This document shows, piece by piece, positions 4,535 through 25,420 of a stretch of 30,222 nucleotides of DNA (within the stretch, counting starts at the first letter, position 1; every line of letters begins with the position of its first letter). The stretch is from a virus. The notes beneath the pieces are model-generated. The model saw only the letters and a list, made by a program, of their open reading frames with translations. It ran no database searches and was not told the origin of the DNA. Made by a program: the position numbers and the translations under genes. Location: positions 1 to 30,222 of IMG/VR virus record IMGVR_UViG_3300044637_000275; one strand, given 5' to 3'.

Positions 4535-6745
4535 ATGCCAGCAGGAGACGTATTTGGTCTTGATGGATTTTTTCTAAATGTATCAAATCCAGTTACGGTT
4601 TCTGCTGTAGATATTAATTCTACTGCTGCTGGTGCTGGTATTACAGTTGTAAGTGGAACTTTAGATACTACTGCTGGTATTGCAACTCTGACTCTTTCTA
4701 CTACTGCTGGTCTTTCTACTACACCTTTTTATACTGGTGTAAAGATTGCAGTTTCTGGTCTTGCAGATGCTGCTGGTGTTGCATATACTGGATATAATGG
4801 AAATTTTGTAGTCACAGGATTTGCAGGAACTACAACAGTTTCTTATGCAACTACTGGTTATGTTGGTTCTGTGATTGCTGGTATTACCACAACTGGTTTG
4901 GTAATGTTAGTGACTGATACTACTGTTACAAATACAACATGGAGTAGTAATCAAACTCACGGATGGTTTGGTGGTGGTTATACCACAGGACCAGCAATAG
5001 TATCAACAGTAGACCGTATAGATTTTTCTAATGATTCCTCAACAGCATCCGTTAGAGGTCCATTAAGTTCAACAAGACATAGATTAGCAGCAACAGGAAA
5101 CTCTAATTATGGTTGGTTCGGTGGTGGTGCTCCTGAGGCATCTCCAGCAGTATCAACAGTAGACCGTATAGATTTTTCTAATGATTCCTCAACAGCATCC
5201 GTTAGAGGTCCATTAAGTTCAACAAGACATAGATTAGCAGCAACAGGAAACTCTAACTATGGTTGGTTTGGTGGTAGTACATCTCCAACATTTTCATCAG
5301 TAGTAGATCGTATAGATTTCTCTAATGATTCTTCAACGGCATCCGCAAGAGGTTCATTAAGTTTAGCAAAAGATTCTTTAGCAGCAACAGGAAACTCTAA
5401 CTATGGTTGGTTTGGTGGTGGTGCTCCTGGACCAGTATCAGTAGTAGACCGTATAGATTTTTCCAATGATTCCTCAACAGCATCCGTTAGAGGTCCATTA
5501 AGTTCAGAAAGAAGTCGAATGGCAGCAACAGGAAACTCTAATTATGGTTGGTTTGGTGGTGGTTATACTCCAGCACCTCAAGCATCAATAGTAGACCGTA
5601 TAGATTTTTCCAATGATTCTGCAACAGCATCAGTGAGAGGTCCATTGAGTCAAGAAAGATATAATTTAACAGCAACAGGAAACTCTAACTATGGATGGTT
5701 TGGTGGTAAAACAGGAGAGACAACACCATTATCATCAGTAGATCGTATAGATTTCTCAAATGATACTGGAACTGCAAATATAAGAGGTCCATTAAGTTCA
5801 GCAAAAGGTAGTGGGGGGGCAACATCAGGACAGGCAAGATCTCGCAGTACTACTATTCCAAAAACTGGAACTTATGGCTGGTTTGGTGGTGGTTTTATAT
5901 CTCCAACATTTTCAGCAGTAGTAGATCGTATAGATTTCTCTAATGATTCTGCGACAGCATCACCTAGAGGTTCATTGACTGCGGGAAGAGGATATTTAGC
6001 AGCAACAGGAAACTCTAACTATGGTTGGATTGGTGGTGGAAGAACTGCTGTACCAACACCAGTATCAACAGTGGAACGTATAAATTTCTCTAATGATTCT
6101 GTAACTGCATCTGTGAGAAGTCCATTAACTATAGAAAGAGCCGTAACTGCAGCAGTAAGCAATTCTAATTATGGTTGGTTTGCTGGTGGTCTTAATCCTG
6201 GATCAACTCCGTCAACTATATCAAGAATAGATAGAATTAATTTTTCTAATGATACAAGAATAAATATTAGAAATTCAAGTCCATTAATTCAAGTTAATGA
6301 AGCAGCAGTTGGAAACTTTAATTATGGTTGGTTTGCTAGTAATGGTGTTAATCGTTTGGATTTTTCAAATGATGTAAATTCATTATCAACTAGAGGCAGT
6401 TTATCTCAAGGAAGAAGATCTTTAGCAGCAACAGGAAACTATGATTATGGATGGTTTGGTGGTGGGATTGTTATAGCAACAAGATCCACAAGAATAGACC
6501 GTATAAATTTCTCTAATGATTCCGTAGCAGCATCAGTTAGATCTTCATTTATTGCTGCAACCGATGATTTAGCAGCATCAGGAAACTCTAACTATGGTTG
6601 GTTTGGTGGAGGATCTACTCCAACAACAGTAGCAACAGTAAACCGTTTAGATTTCTCTAATGATTCAGTTCAAGCATCACCAAGAGGACCATTAAGTTTA
6701 GCGAGAAGTCAATTAGCAGCAACTGCCAATACACCAATAGGATAA
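4535..6745 (+). CDS. 12-repeat kelch-like beta-propeller protein B (probable tail/fibre protein)
   Basis: This 736-residue paralogue of the gene at 939-2786 starts after a good ribosome-binding site (GGAG, ATG 4535). About 135 N-terminal residues are Thr/Gly/Val-rich, predicted beta and Ig-like in composition, and could anchor it to the virion. Twelve kelch-like repeats follow, again split 6+6 by a linker (around nt 5823-5875). Repeats 1 and 2 share a 108-bp identical DNA stretch, showing recent duplication. Repeats 9 and 10 are degenerate (NYGWFAGG, NYGWFASN). The stop codon lies within a late-promoter motif for the next gene. A host-binding or tail-fibre role is inferred. Confidence 0.75.
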   Translation: MPAGDVFGLDGFFLNVSNPVTVSAVDINSTAAGAGITVVSGTLDTTAGIATLTLSTTAGLSTTPFYTGVKIAVSGLADAAGVAYTGYNGNFVVTGFAGTTTVSYATTGYVGSVIAGITTTGLVMLVTDTTVTNTTWSSNQTHGWFGGGYTTGPAIVSTVDRIDFSNDSSTASVRGPLSSTRHRLAATGNSNYGWFGGGAPEASPAVSTVDRIDFSNDSSTASVRGPLSSTRHRLAATGNSNYGWFGGSTSPTFSSVVDRIDFSNDSSTASARGSLSLAKDSLAATGNSNYGWFGGGAPGPVSVVDRIDFSNDSSTASVRGPLSSERSRMAATGNSNYGWFGGGYTPAPQASIVDRIDFSNDSATASVRGPLSQERYNLTATGNSNYGWFGGKTGETTPLSSVDRIDFSNDTGTANIRGPLSSAKGSGGATSGQARSRSTTIPKTGTYGWFGGGFISPTFSAVVDRIDFSNDSATASPRGSLTAGRGYLAATGNSNYGWIGGGRTAVPTPVSTVERINFSNDSVTASVRSPLTIERAVTAAVSNSNYGWFAGGLNPGSTPSTISRIDRINFSNDTRINIRNSSPLIQVNEAAVGNFNYGWFASNGVNRLDFSNDVNSLSTRGSLSQGRRSLAATGNYDYGWFGGGIVIATRSTRIDRINFSNDSVAASVRSSFIAATDDLAASGNSNYGWFGGGSTPTTVATVNRLDFSNDSVQASPRGPLSLARSQLAATANTPIG
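4999..5106 (+). repeat. Perfect 108-bp direct repeat, copy 1
   Basis: It is identical to 5149-5256, offset by 150 bp (50 codons), and ends at a T/C difference at 5107 versus 5257. It encodes the VDRIDFSND to AATGNS part of blade 1 of the second kelch-like protein. Perfect identity, including third codon positions, indicates a very recent duplication or gene conversion. Confidence 0.95.
5149..5256 (+). repeat. Perfect 108-bp direct repeat, copy 2
   Basis: Second copy of the repeat at 4999-5106, in blade 2. In-frame recombination between the copies would remove or add exactly one 50-residue blade. Confidence 0.95.
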
Positions 6746-8093: not shown

Positions 8094-10277
8094 ATGTCCG
8101 TAAATCTAGAAGTCAAGGGTTCTCTTGCCAAATGTCTGGCAACTGAGAATCTTATCATCGAGCACAAAAAAGTTCCGACTGCAATGTTTGATGTGGATCG
8201 TCGTGTGTTGACTCTTCCTACCTGGGATAAAGCATCTGCGATTGTTTATGACCTTCTTGTTGGTCATGAAGTGGGTCACGCACTTTATACCGATAATATT
8301 GACTGGACTGAAGAATATCCTGAAGTTCCTAAAGACTTCGTGAATGTTCTGGAAGATGTTCGTGTAGAACGTCTGATGAAGAAAAAGTATCCTGGTCTTT
8401 CTCGGACTTTCTATAATGGTTATAATGAACTCAACAACGATGATTTCTTCTCCACTAAGGATGAGAAACTGGATGATTTGAGTTTTATTGACCGAATCAA
8501 TCTGTACTTCAAGATCGGTGCATTTCATAACATTGCTTTCGGTGATGAAGAAAATGAGTTTCTGACTCGTGCTTCTTGTACCGAAACCTTTGATGAAGTG
8601 CTGCAACTTGCTCGTGAAATTACCGAGTTCGTGCAATACAAACGTCAGAAGGTAGATTCTATGCCCAGTGCTGGTGGTGAAGATGAAATGTCTGGTTCTG
8701 GTGGGGAAGAAGTTGAAACTCCTCAATCGCAATCTTCTGAAGATGGTGAGAATCAGGACGGACAGAATAAAACTGAACTAGAACAAGATTCTCAGGGACA
8801 GTCTCAAACTGATGGTGAATCCTTTGGTGATGAGATGAATAAGTCTCTGGAAGCACCAAATGGTGGTGGTTTTGGTCAGGAAGCAAGTAATCAGCACGGA
8901 GAAACTAATAAAGATGAATTGAAATCCAAAACTTCTCGTTCTTTTGATGAGAAGTCTCAGGACCTTGTGGATAAGTATGCTCATGAAACTCATTATGTGG
9001 AACTTCCCAAAATGAATCTTGAAACGATGGTGATTCCGAATGAGTTTATTCATCGTAAAGCAAAGGAGTTCTATACAAATAATAATAGTTGGATTCGTGA
9101 TTCCTATGATGCTGCTTGTAAAGAATACAATATTTACAAGAAGTCTGCAGAAAAAGAAGTTTCTTATCTTGTAAAAGAGTTTGAGTGTAAGAAATCTGCA
9201 GACCAGTATGCTCGTTCTAGCACCGCTCGTACTGGTGTTCTGGATACACAGAAACTTCATACCTATAAGTTCAATGAAGACCTGTTTAAGAAGGTCTCTG
9301 TGGTTCCTGATGGTAAGAATCACGGTCTCATTTTTATTCTTGACTGGTCTGGTTCAATGAATGAATTCATTCTGGATGCTTATAAGCAACTTCTAAATCT
9401 CATTTGGTTTTGCCGTAAAGTAAATATTCCTTTTGAGGTTTATGCCTTTACTGTAGATTGCAATTCTTATGTGGAACTTCAACCGAATCATCCTCCTGTT
9501 TATGAAAAAGTTGCTGGTGTTCTTGCACCTGAAAACTCTTTCCGTCTGATGAATTTTTTCACCAGCAAGACCAATAATCGTGTTCTTGAAGAACAACTCA
9601 AGAACATTTGGGTTGCTTGCTATTCTTATCAGAAACGGTCTGGTGCTGTTCCTCCTCATCTTGACCTGTCTGGTTCTCCGATTGGTGAAAGTATCATTGC
9701 TCTTCATTCTTTGATTCCTGATTTTCAGGCAAAGAATAAACTGCAGAAGGTCAATGTTATTTTTCTGACTGATGGTGAAGGGTATCAAAATTCTGTGACG
9801 GTTGAACGTAAAAAGTATGATAGTGATTCTTATATCGGTCATACAAAGTACAATCGTACTGCAATTCGTGATCGTAAATCTGGTCGGATTTATCCTCCCC
9901 TGAATTATGATAATTTCCCTCGTTATGCGAAAGTTCTTCTTCAAACGGTAAAGGATAAGTTTCCAACTGTGAATCTCATCAATTTCCGTATCACTCCTAG
10001 TCGTGATTTTCAAACCTGCTATCGTTGGTATGGTGGTGATTATAACAACTATGATAGTGTGAAATCAGAATACAAAAAGAACCAATGTGTTCGTTTTGAT
10101 AATACTGGATTTGACCAATTCAATGTGATTGCTTCTAGTTCTCTTGCACAAGAAGAGGAGTTCTCTGTTCCCGAGAATGCGACCAAGGCACAAATCAAAT
10201 CTGCCTTCACTAAAGTTCTTGGCAAGAAAAGGACTAACAAAAAACTTCTGGGTTCTTTTGTTGAAATGATTGCCTAG
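8094..10277 (+). CDS. CobT-like protein: HExxH metallopeptidase-like N-terminus, acidic linker, VWA domain
   Basis: The 727-residue protein has three parts. Near the N-terminus is HEVGH (58-62) followed by NVLEDVRVERLM (84-95), a zinc-peptidase-like arrangement with a candidate third ligand. A Glu/Ser/Gln-rich low-complexity linker spans about 190-290. A von Willebrand A domain has the MIDAS motif D417-W-S-G-S421. CobT subunits of cobaltochelatase share the VWA end and the LExxRVE pattern. A CobS-like ATPase is encoded next, so the pair resembles a CobS-CobT or MoxR-VWA chaperone couple. Cyanophages are known to carry cobS. No CobN-like large subunit is present, so cobalt insertion is not demonstrated, and remodelling of some other protein complex is equally possible. 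Confidence 0.75.
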   Translation: MSVNLEVKGSLAKCLATENLIIEHKKVPTAMFDVDRRVLTLPTWDKASAIVYDLLVGHEVGHALYTDNIDWTEEYPEVPKDFVNVLEDVRVERLMKKKYPGLSRTFYNGYNELNNDDFFSTKDEKLDDLSFIDRINLYFKIGAFHNIAFGDEENEFLTRASCTETFDEVLQLAREITEFVQYKRQKVDSMPSAGGEDEMSGSGGEEVETPQSQSSEDGENQDGQNKTELEQDSQGQSQTDGESFGDEMNKSLEAPNGGGFGQEASNQHGETNKDELKSKTSRSFDEKSQDLVDKYAHETHYVELPKMNLETMVIPNEFIHRKAKEFYTNNNSWIRDSYDAACKEYNIYKKSAEKEVSYLVKEFECKKSADQYARSSTARTGVLDTQKLHTYKFNEDLFKKVSVVPDGKNHGLIFILDWSGSMNEFILDAYKQLLNLIWFCRKVNIPFEVYAFTVDCNSYVELQPNHPPVYEKVAGVLAPENSFRLMNFFTSKTNNRVLEEQLKNIWVACYSYQKRSGAVPPHLDLSGSPIGESIIALHSLIPDFQAKNKLQKVNVIFLTDGEGYQNSVTVERKKYDSDSYIGHTKYNRTAIRDRKSGRIYPPLNYDNFPRYAKVLLQTVKDKFPTVNLINFRITPSRDFQTCYRWYGGDYNNYDSVKSEYKKNQCVRFDNTGFDQFNVIASSSLAQEEEFSVPENATKAQIKSAFTKVLGKKRTNKKLLGSFVEMIA

Positions 10278-24612: not shown

Positions 24613-24633
24613 ACTATAGTTGTGGAGAGCACT

Positions 24634-25173
24634 ATGGTTAGTTGTATTTGTAAAAAATGTGGGTCGCAGTTTGAAAAAATTAAAAGTGAATATAATAGGA
24701 AAATTAAATTGGGAACTCCATTTTTTTGTAGTTTAAAATGCTCCAGCAGTTCTCATGATACTTCTTATTTGGATAGTTGGAGAAAAAGTGAAACTAACAA
24801 AAATTTTATAAAGCAATTTAGTGGAAGTGATAAAGATGACTATTCTTCTTTTAGAGAAACTTTAAAAAAAGTTAGAAGCAGAAGTAAATCTAAAAATAGA
24901 GAATGTGATATTGATTTGAATTATCTAAAAGAAGTGTGGGAAATACAAGAAGGCAAATGTCCTTATTTAAAAAGAGAATTAGTTCTTCCTTTGACTGACC
25001 AATCTCACGATAAATCAAATCCAAATTTAGTTGCTAGTTTAGATAGGATTGATAGTTCAAAAGGATATGTAAAAGGAAATATACAATTTATTAGCACGAC
25101 TTTAAATTTTGCTAAAAACAAATATGCTGAAGATGTTCTCTTGAATTTAATTGAAATGTGTGCTACTATATAA
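24634..25173 (+). CDS. HNH-type endonuclease (free-standing, probably mobile)
   Basis: 179 residues. A front zinc finger has C4, C6 and C9 with C32 and C36. A later region KCPYLKRELVLP (108-119) leads to NLVASLDRIDSSKGYVKGNI (131-150) and QFISTTLNFAKN, the SLDRID...GY..GN pattern of phage homing HNH enzymes. ATG 24634 has a GGAGAG site 5 nt upstream, better than GTG 24622. It is inserted between tRNA-Ala and the tmRNA, and the tmRNA promoter lies within its last codons. Codon use is more A-rich (AAA, AGT, AGA) than neighbours, consistent with transfer. Confidence 0.82.
   Translation: MVSCICKKCGSQFEKIKSEYNRKIKLGTPFFCSLKCSSSSHDTSYLDSWRKSETNKNFIKQFSGSDKDDYSSFRETLKKVRSRSKSKNRECDIDLNYLKEVWEIQEGKCPYLKRELVLPLTDQSHDKSNPNLVASLDRIDSSKGYVKGNIQFISTTLNFAKNKYAEDVLLNLIEMCATI
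25141..25169 (+). promoter_or_regulatory. Probable tmRNA promoter (TTGAAT, 17 bp, TGC-TACTAT)
   Basis: TTGAAT 25141-25146 and TACTAT 25164-25169 with an exact 17-bp spacer and an extended TGC. The start is predicted near 25176, just after the HNH stop and just before the acceptor piece. Confidence 0.65.
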
Positions 25174-25301
25174 AGAGTTCAAGAGGATAAACCTCTATAT
25201 TCCAACACATCGGGGCAGTACCGATTATCTCCATTTCGTGGGGATAAAATAGAATCGACTGGGATGTATGTATTATCTGTTGACGGAACAAACAAACAAA
25301 C

Positions 25302-25346
25302 GTAAACAACATTGTTGCTTTCTCTCGTCAAACAGTTTCTGTTTGA
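25302..25346 (+). other. tmRNA tag reading frame: VNNIVAFSRQTVSV-stop
   Basis: GTA at 25302 to TGA at 25344-25346 encodes 14 residues. NNIVxFSRQ matches the core of marine cyanobacterial tags, which as I recall end in APVAA. Here the end is TVSV, without the terminal Ala-Ala that ClpXP-type proteases recognise. The resume codon is assigned by alignment to host tags (GTA in place of GCA); AAC at 25305 is the alternative. Confidence 0.75.
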
Positions 25347-25395
25347 ACTAAACGAGTGAGGGGGTTATAAGTTTCCTTCTTACCCAAAACTTACA

Positions 25396-25420
25396 AGGAG
25401 GTGTAATGCCTCCTATTTTT
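25396..25420 (+). terminator. Terminator of the tmRNA
   Basis: AGGAGG and CCTCCT with a 7-nt loop, then A and five T. Confidence 0.8.

Follow-up and report, generated by a model that had tools for sequence, protein, structure and literature searches.

Does the virus from which this DNA derives encode its own permuted tmRNA, and what would a tag peptide without the Ala-Ala end of the host do? The window, that is, the whole stretch of 30,222 nucleotides that was analyzed, is a 30.2-kb virus record. Nine of the ten window proteins scanned match PHROG phage families, including phrog_459 (peptidase), phrog_249 (porphyrin biosynthesis; presumably CobS-like), ferredoxin and a 2OG-Fe(II) oxygenase. 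A permuted tmRNA gene (ssrA) of the cyanobacterial type was found on the plus strand at positions 25160–25412, the extent of the whole covariance-model match. Two Rfam models score above their gathering thresholds: RF01851 (cyano_tmRNA) with 79.8 bits against a threshold of 70 (E = 5.5e-20), and RF04321 (tmRNA_permuted), at 25183–25346, with 55.3 bits against 47 (E = 2.2e-08). A preliminary description of the locus had named a phage-encoded permuted tmRNA and proposed such a covariance-model search; the matches are significant, and every element that it named is present, in the order and at the coordinates given. ARAGORN listed nine tRNAs in the window and missed the tmRNA gene. The window thus carries a phage-encoded permuted ssrA gene, which confirms the earlier observation.

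All elements of the gene lie on the plus strand. A promoter-like site, TTGAAT-17-TACTAT with a TG extension at 25161–25162 (whole site 25141–25169), overlaps the 3' end of the upstream open reading frame. The 5' arm of P2, TATATTCC (25196–25203), pairs with its 3' arm, GGGATGTA (25261–25268), to form helix 1. Between these arms lie the T arm (25209–25225; helix 2), with a 5-bp stem and the loop GGCAGTA at 25214–25220; the acceptor 3' strand TATCTCC (25226–25232) with the A73 discriminator (25233), CCA not being encoded; a 6-nt spacer (25234–25239); the acceptor 5' strand GGGGATA (25240–25246), which completes the 7-bp acceptor stem (helix 3); and the D-region signature AATCGAC (25253–25259), whose positions T78–C82, numbered by the first sequence, are invariant in the alignment. 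The 3' strand of the tRNA-like domain (TLD; 25226–25233) precedes its 5' strand, as expected of a permuted gene. The tag frame VNNIVAFSRQTVSV (25302–25343) closes with TGA (25344–25346); the host equivalent ends in ..APVAA. The stop codon is held in the tag-end hairpin TCAAACAG-TTT-CTGTTTGA (25328–25346; helix 4). Downstream are a P5-like helix (25356–25383; helix 5) with arms at 25356–25364 and 25375–25383, a pseudoknot (25366–25395; helix 6) in which 25366–25374 pairs with 25387–25395, and a Rho-independent terminator detected by a terminator scan (25396–25420), with a stem at 25396–25414 followed by ATTTTTGTGC.

The canonical T-loop TTCRANY is typical of tmRNA, not defining. The window has GGCAGTA in its place, as do 24 of the 101 virus-side loci described below (window included); 76 have a TTC-type loop and one has another type. 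The resume codon is GTA (Val), and the frame with the A four bases 5' of this codon and the stop spans 25298–25346; the A at this distance is the A86 rule of PMC2481249. The GAC of the D region, expected to contact SmpB, is invariant in the 18 sequences aligned, and the equivalent bases were mutated in the work reported in PMC2584231. The window frame is open and conserved, so the gene does not belong with the TLD-only inhibitory tmRNAs of the DS6A type, which are marked by the lack of a tag frame. Since the tag ends in VSV and host tags end in Ala-Ala, we do not file it as a canonical ssrA degron.

The pairs of the named structure were counted in an alignment of 18 distinct members of the window superfamily, with tags ending in RQ[TP]xxV. 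Among these sequences, 93.1% of the structure cells are paired, compared with 33.8–55.8% when partners are slid by 1–3 columns. Covariation scores are 0.279 for the structure itself and 0.039–0.094 for slid partners; the structure tested was derived from the window, which favors it over the slid versions. In the acceptor stem 100% of cells are paired, with compensatory changes on both sides at three of the seven pairs and G3-U70 in all 18 sequences. The T stem is likewise paired in 100% of cells, with both-side changes at all five pairs. The tag-end hairpin (96.5% paired) varies on both sides at columns 156/168 and 159/165, and the latter pair shows C-G, U-A and A-U alternatives at third codon positions. 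The P5-like helix is 94.4% paired and has a both-side change at one of nine pairs. The pseudoknot, 93.8% paired, has no both-side change and is therefore without covariation support, though plausible. Over the superfamily P2 is only 77.1% paired, because its distal pairs occur in window-type sequences only. The expectation that relatives preserve the acceptor and P2 pairings is thus borne out for the acceptor with its invariant G3-U70, and only in part for P2. The D region reads TAGAATCGAC in the window type and AGGTTTCGAC, TGGAATCGAC or similar in the sister types of the alignment. When the sequence is folded singly, its advantage over shuffles is modest (z = −2.07; 5 of 200 shuffles did as well). 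The compensatory changes indicate that the tmRNA structure is real and kept by selection.

The window tag retains the conserved NNIVxFSR body, but its last residue is Val (VSV) and the Ala-Ala end is gone. One tag-body pattern, neutral as to the tag end, was run on host genomes and on viral contigs. The host scan yielded at least 120 stretches; 102 of 120 were read, the other 18 having no ANNIVxFSRQ frame. Among the matches listed, Ala-Ala closes all 102 ANNIVxFSRQ host tags, as part of APVAA in 100, and all come from Cyanobacteriota records, mostly Synechococcus, Prochlorococcus and Cyanobium; within these matches the claim that VNNIVAFSRQTVSV lacks the host Ala-Ala stands. In viral contigs the same pattern gave 35 readable tags out of 40, of which 24 end in Val, nine in Ala-Ala and two in another x-Ala. 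A scan by the tRNA-like domain only found 60 loci, 50 of them readable (Val 23, x-Ala 16, Ala-Ala 11), and so the result is independent of the tag pattern. One scan demanding a Val-stop end returned only loci already present in the tag-body scan, and a scan for the window's own T-arm gave nine extra loci, all Val-ended, eight of which are within the 101.

The 101 virus-side loci, which are contigs and not independent lineages, were chosen by sequence patterns and not by a covariance model, with near-identical contigs unmerged; 56 of them end in Val, 22 in x-Ala other than Ala-Ala, 22 in Ala-Ala and one in Leu. They hold 36 distinct tags, of which 18 are Val-ended. The tabulation of C-termini suggested in the preliminary description reveals recurrent altered ends, and also 22 loci with Ala-Ala. 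These loci are those read out of 119. The 18 misses include five chance matches (L003, L010, L022, L029, L034), two phages of other hosts (L170, L171), L178 with the tag LNNIVSFRRTAVAV, which was removed by a stricter filter, and 10 of the 60 loci of the TLD scan, two of which (L197 and L205) are one-piece tmRNAs with the tag ANNNNYFEVAQAA. None of eight named cyanophage records ends in Val (three Ala-Ala, four x-Ala, one Leu). A Val end as a general phage trait finds no support in the few other phages read: HTVC008M ends in ALAA, DLP_6 in AIAA and Enterococcus phage EfV12-phi1 in AVA. Sequencing errors or frameshifts were ruled out, as the tags recur across many contigs with conservation at the codon level.

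ARAGORN reads the same tag end at 74 of the 101 virus-side loci (Val 29, x-Ala 22, Ala-Ala 22, Leu 1) and reads the tag of L021 differently. At the remaining 26 it called no tmRNA: these are all 24 window-type loci together with L020 and L037. Counts of the window type obtained with ARAGORN would therefore be too low. Rfam was run on 15 loci of viral contigs, and cyano_tmRNA scored above gathering in 14, with no match in L021; L020 and L007 exceed the Rfam gathering score.

Where did the gene come from, and is its new end maintained? A quick tree was built from 81 sequences (71 from the virus side, all distinct, and 10 hosts, sampled at a rate of one in five from the distinct ones) with the tag-end columns removed; the search was short, branches are long and recombination is present. 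The 10 sampled hosts form a single clade (SH-aLRT 100) that contains none of the 71 virus-side sequences, and hence the window ssrA looks like an old phage lineage. The suggestion that the phage took a host ssrA is not borne out by this quick tree. Contamination of viral contigs with host DNA was rejected for the tree set on the same grounds; in addition, S-CAM1, S-CAM3 and S-SSM7 are isolates, T4 gp23 and psbA-type genes are present on the contigs G001 and G002, and L002 carries T4-like baseplate proteins.

On the quick tree the Val ending requires six changes, at least three of which are forced by starred branches, and the distinction between Ala-Ala and other ends requires nine. L181 (..ELATV) is sister to ten TA- or PA-ended sequences (98*), and L011 (..QAVAV) clusters with phages whose tags are ..APVAA, ..STVAA and ..AAVA (support 85). 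Five Val-ended families have 3, 0 and 10 variable sites at codon positions 1, 2 and 3 of their final five codons. The counts are small (13 variable sites), and the Val ending looks maintained, because ten of the 13 are third positions. In the RTAVAV family the same five codons have pS 0.36 and pN 0. The two x-Ala families have no third-position excess (2, 1 and 2 each, last five codons). At the tag end, host L045 reads CAAACAGCCCCTGTTGCTGCTTGA and the window reads CAAACAGTTTCTGTTTGA; the difference may reflect loss of GCTGCT, that is, of exactly two Ala codons, leaving a hairpin that resembles that of the window, loop aside.

Recombination within tmRNA is visible in L172, as its 5' half is that of L041 and its 3' half is like those of L001 and L005. 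Compared with window positions 25178–25412, L172, L008 and L032 are chimeras, with near-alike 3' halves on differing tRNA-like domains. From these alignments, it looks like the tRNA-like and mRNA-like parts are reshuffled between phages. At positions 8330–8490 of L178 the window-type TLD core with the odd T-loop sits on a shorter gene whose tag is LNNIVSFRRTAVAV, and so the core seems to be mobile as a module; this tmRNA is under the Rfam gathering score and was not called by ARAGORN.

A phage ssrA gene is present, its structure and tag frame are under selection, and its tag ends in Val where host tags end in Ala-Ala. The account that we find somewhat probable is that of a functional ssrA of a T4-like cyanophage, which would rescue ribosomes together with host SmpB and whose Val-ended tag would be a weaker ClpXP degron. 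Host RNA polymerase would transcribe the gene, probably early in infection, host tRNA-processing enzymes would cut the transcript into two pieces, and host AlaRS would charge it with alanine through G3-U70. The phage tmRNA and host SmpB could then release ribosomes that have stalled on broken mRNAs in the infected cell. Competing with host tmRNA, it would keep ribosomes circulating and, through the presumably weaker degron, spare ClpXP, to the likely benefit of the phage. Observations against this account include the following: none of the eight named cyanophage records is Val-ended, the two x-Ala families lack a third-position excess, the T-loop is non-canonical, and ARAGORN called none of the 24 window-type loci.

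The literature on engineered tags bears on the strength of the degron. According to PMC3446811, tag strength in Synechocystis falls from LVA through AAV to ASV, the weakest of the three. Proteins tagged with AAV or ASV in Salmonella are reported to be degraded more slowly than those with LVA, in a ClpXP-dependent manner (PMC11003136), and in E. coli LAA and LVA destabilize more than AAV or ASV (PMC9097571). PMC2584231 describes ribosome rescue as essential in H. pylori and the intact tag as dispensable for viability; replacement of the last two Ala residues stabilized the target only about two-fold. Ala-Ala is thus not decisive in every species, and proteolysis may only be slowed, given that ClpXP continues to degrade proteins with ASV or AAV tags. 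The idea that the phage tmRNA works without sending its products to ClpXP is probably too strong, as ssrA variants that end in Val have reduced but not abolished degron activity in the literature. Our best estimate is that the window tag would likewise be a weaker, not an absent, degron. Loss of Ala-Ala is not required in any case, since 22 of the 101 virus-side loci keep it.

A broader reading, possible but held only tentatively, concerns cyanophages as a group: several lineages may have replaced Ala-Ala by Val or x-Ala independently, with selection holding the new ends in the Val-ended families. The new ends would turn trans-translation from rescue and destruction of products into rescue and sparing, or would pass the products to a protease other than host ClpXP, and the change in the tRNA elbow (T-loop) of the window type would perhaps make host factors or tRNA-targeting defenses handle it differently from host tmRNA.

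The selection on the tag could also mean that the Val-ended peptide is a working degron, with Clp or another protease accepting small hydrophobic ends and the exact residues set by drift or tuning. Most ends are indeed small and hydrophobic, or so apart from Thr or Ser (ALV, SLV, VAV, VSV, VLV, ATV, ATA, VTA), similar ends recur in differing tag bodies, the codon-level conservation implies that the peptide still matters, and ASV tags are ClpXP substrates in Salmonella according to PMC11003136. However, hosts never vary the last two residues (102 of 102 among the matches listed), so that the host system seems intolerant of such change, and ASV is the weakest tag tested in Synechocystis in PMC3446811; we regard this explanation as unlikely, though worth weighing. 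The hairpin around the stop codon suggests another one, in which RNA structure sets the C-terminus: a compact stop-codon hairpin would be selected, and the loss of Ala-Ala would be a by-product of shortening. This would fit the perfect TCAAACAG-TTT-CTGTTTGA hairpin of the window and the compensatory changes in its relatives, and removal of GCTGCT from the host-like L045 does give a window-like hairpin, loop aside. Yet in local folds the stop codon of the SRSKxTALV tags is unpaired with the preceding tag codons and the end is still ALV, so that RNA structure alone fails to explain the Val ends. Furthermore, the host tag end is also a hairpin (by the Rfam model and the fold of L042) and keeps Ala-Ala, and the compensatory changes within the window family are also synonymous. 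We consider a purely structural cause quite improbable.

The non-canonical T-loop invites two further interpretations. The phage TLD could be a decoy that sequesters host SmpB and blocks host tmRNA, for which the TLD-only RNA of mycobacteriophage DS6A offers a precedent (PMC4131195, PMC11915505), and the altered T-loop is limited to the window type (24 of 101 loci). A decoy has no need of a tag, whereas frame, stop and codon conservation are all kept here, which makes this idea even more improbable than the structural one. The odd T-loop and the ARAGORN miss would also fit a decaying, functionless remnant of host origin, as would the modest score of 79.8 bits in comparison with 194.2, 186.3 and 159 for the Ala-Ala-ended viral loci L018, L002 and L012. 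The compensatory changes, the terminator, the conserved frame and the 24 viral contigs that share the T-arm leave decay scarcely credible.

The motif TGNTA[CT]TATA was found upstream of the gene in 19 of 67 distinct stretches, at a constant distance from the RNA start. The best −35-like hexamer, with the spacing picked from 16–18, is TTGACA in 8 of these 19; the remaining hexamers agree with it at 4 or 5 of the 6 positions. A generic promoter scan did not list the window site TTGAAT-17-TACTAT (8 of 12 matches, under its threshold), and the promoter-like sites that it found are fewer than in shuffles (1 versus a mean of 2.3). The upstream promoter-like sites suggest independent transcription by the host sigma-70 polymerase and hence early expression. 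SmpB was found in none of 21 virus records chosen for carrying tmRNA, all of which matched RF04321; they include seven named phages (six isolates and one single-cell genome) and contigs of up to 251 kb. Phage ClpP and ClpS were each found in none of 17 records. Many of the records scanned for these three proteins are fragments, so that their absence is not proven. Given the SmpB result, host SmpB would be needed.

The hosts are most likely picocyanobacteria. Three contigs of 247–251 kb (G001, G002 and G003) each have a single RF04321 match and also encode T4 gp23 and psbA-type genes; G001 has the window-type T-arm and the tag TALV, G002 has SKTTALV and G003 has STVAA. In the window itself neither T4 gp23 nor a psbA-type gene was found.

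Marine phages, including cyanophages, have already been reported to carry two-piece tmRNA: PMC9004378 reports 53 two-piece forms found by ARAGORN, with a figure legend that describes a cyanobacterial lineage common to associated phages. Its Methylophilales phage Melnitz type resembles the window in being a phage-borne permuted ssrA of T4-like marine phages; that survey relied on ARAGORN, which called none of the 24 window-type loci here. A 2025 tmRNA database contains 79 bacteriophage sequences (PMC11915505), and the TLD-only tmRNA of phage DS6A is a form shown to inhibit host tmRNA (PMC4131195, PMC11915505). Among the literature matches listed, no account of cyanophage tags losing or replacing Ala-Ala was found; database tag lists may include such tags without remarking on them.

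The window shares with tmRNAs of the RF01851 and RF04321 families the permuted order, G3-U70, the NNIVxFSRQ body, the tag-end hairpin, the P5-like helix and the terminator. In contrast to them, it has VSV and not APVAA, the T-loop GGCAGTA, the resume codon GTA and a promoter-like site directly upstream; the resume codon of most relatives is GCN. Seven phages carry ssrA above Rfam gathering and none of them is Val-ended: S-CAM1 (STVAA), S-CAM3 (STVAA), S-SSM7 (ELVTA), S-CRM01 (LVAAL), Sf-FS3 (ELATA), S-CBWM1 (VSCA) and AG-345-P14 (QLATA). No tmRNA feature is annotated in the stretches of these records that were examined (that of AG-345-P14 is entirely unannotated). The engineered AAV and ASV variants resemble the window in having Val for the terminal Ala, with weaker degradation; they were built on the E. 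coli tag, whereas the Val-ended window form is natural. With its Val-ended tag, the window tmRNA may rescue ribosomes yet target the tagged proteins less strongly for degradation. The finding bears on why phages carry tmRNA, and the tag terminus provides a rule for finding such tmRNAs, including the type missed by ARAGORN and unannotated genes in cyanophage records.

Unannotated tmRNA genes of this kind were found in S-CAM3 (L162), S-CAM1 (L163), S-CRM01 (L166), S-SSM7 (L167), Sf-FS3 (L168) and S-CBWM1 (L169); in the S-CAM3 and S-SSM7 records the gene is covered by an annotated hypothetical protein. S-SSM7-like phages (L167, L186–L189, L206, L215) have an unusually long tag, ..FSRILTREFARTDELVTA and variants. 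The S-CRM01 tag (L166, 602–661) reads ANNVVKFRRTAVTSLVAAL, which is Ala-Ala plus one extra Leu.

An HNH/endonuclease VII-like open reading frame (phrog_3322, phrog_1035) at 24622–25173 on the plus strand of the window ends just 5' of the tmRNA, and its last codons hold the tmRNA promoter-like site. Full-length matches to this frame were found at 11 loci (L001, which is the window, L006, L004, L038, L031, L027, L013, L040, L036, L175 and L016), with 133–135 bases from its end to the tag. The tags at these loci include VSV as well as ALV; a match at L198 covers 28 amino acids only. Elsewhere in the window, at 939–2786 and 4535–6745, two long proteins have repeats around NSNYGWFGGG and DRIDFSND; they are perhaps virion surface or fiber proteins, which is a guess. 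In two contigs the tmRNA lies directly 5' of psbA (L012, 11176–12669; L023, 224–1740), and in L005, L008 and L032 there are 22 to 25 tRNA genes beside it.
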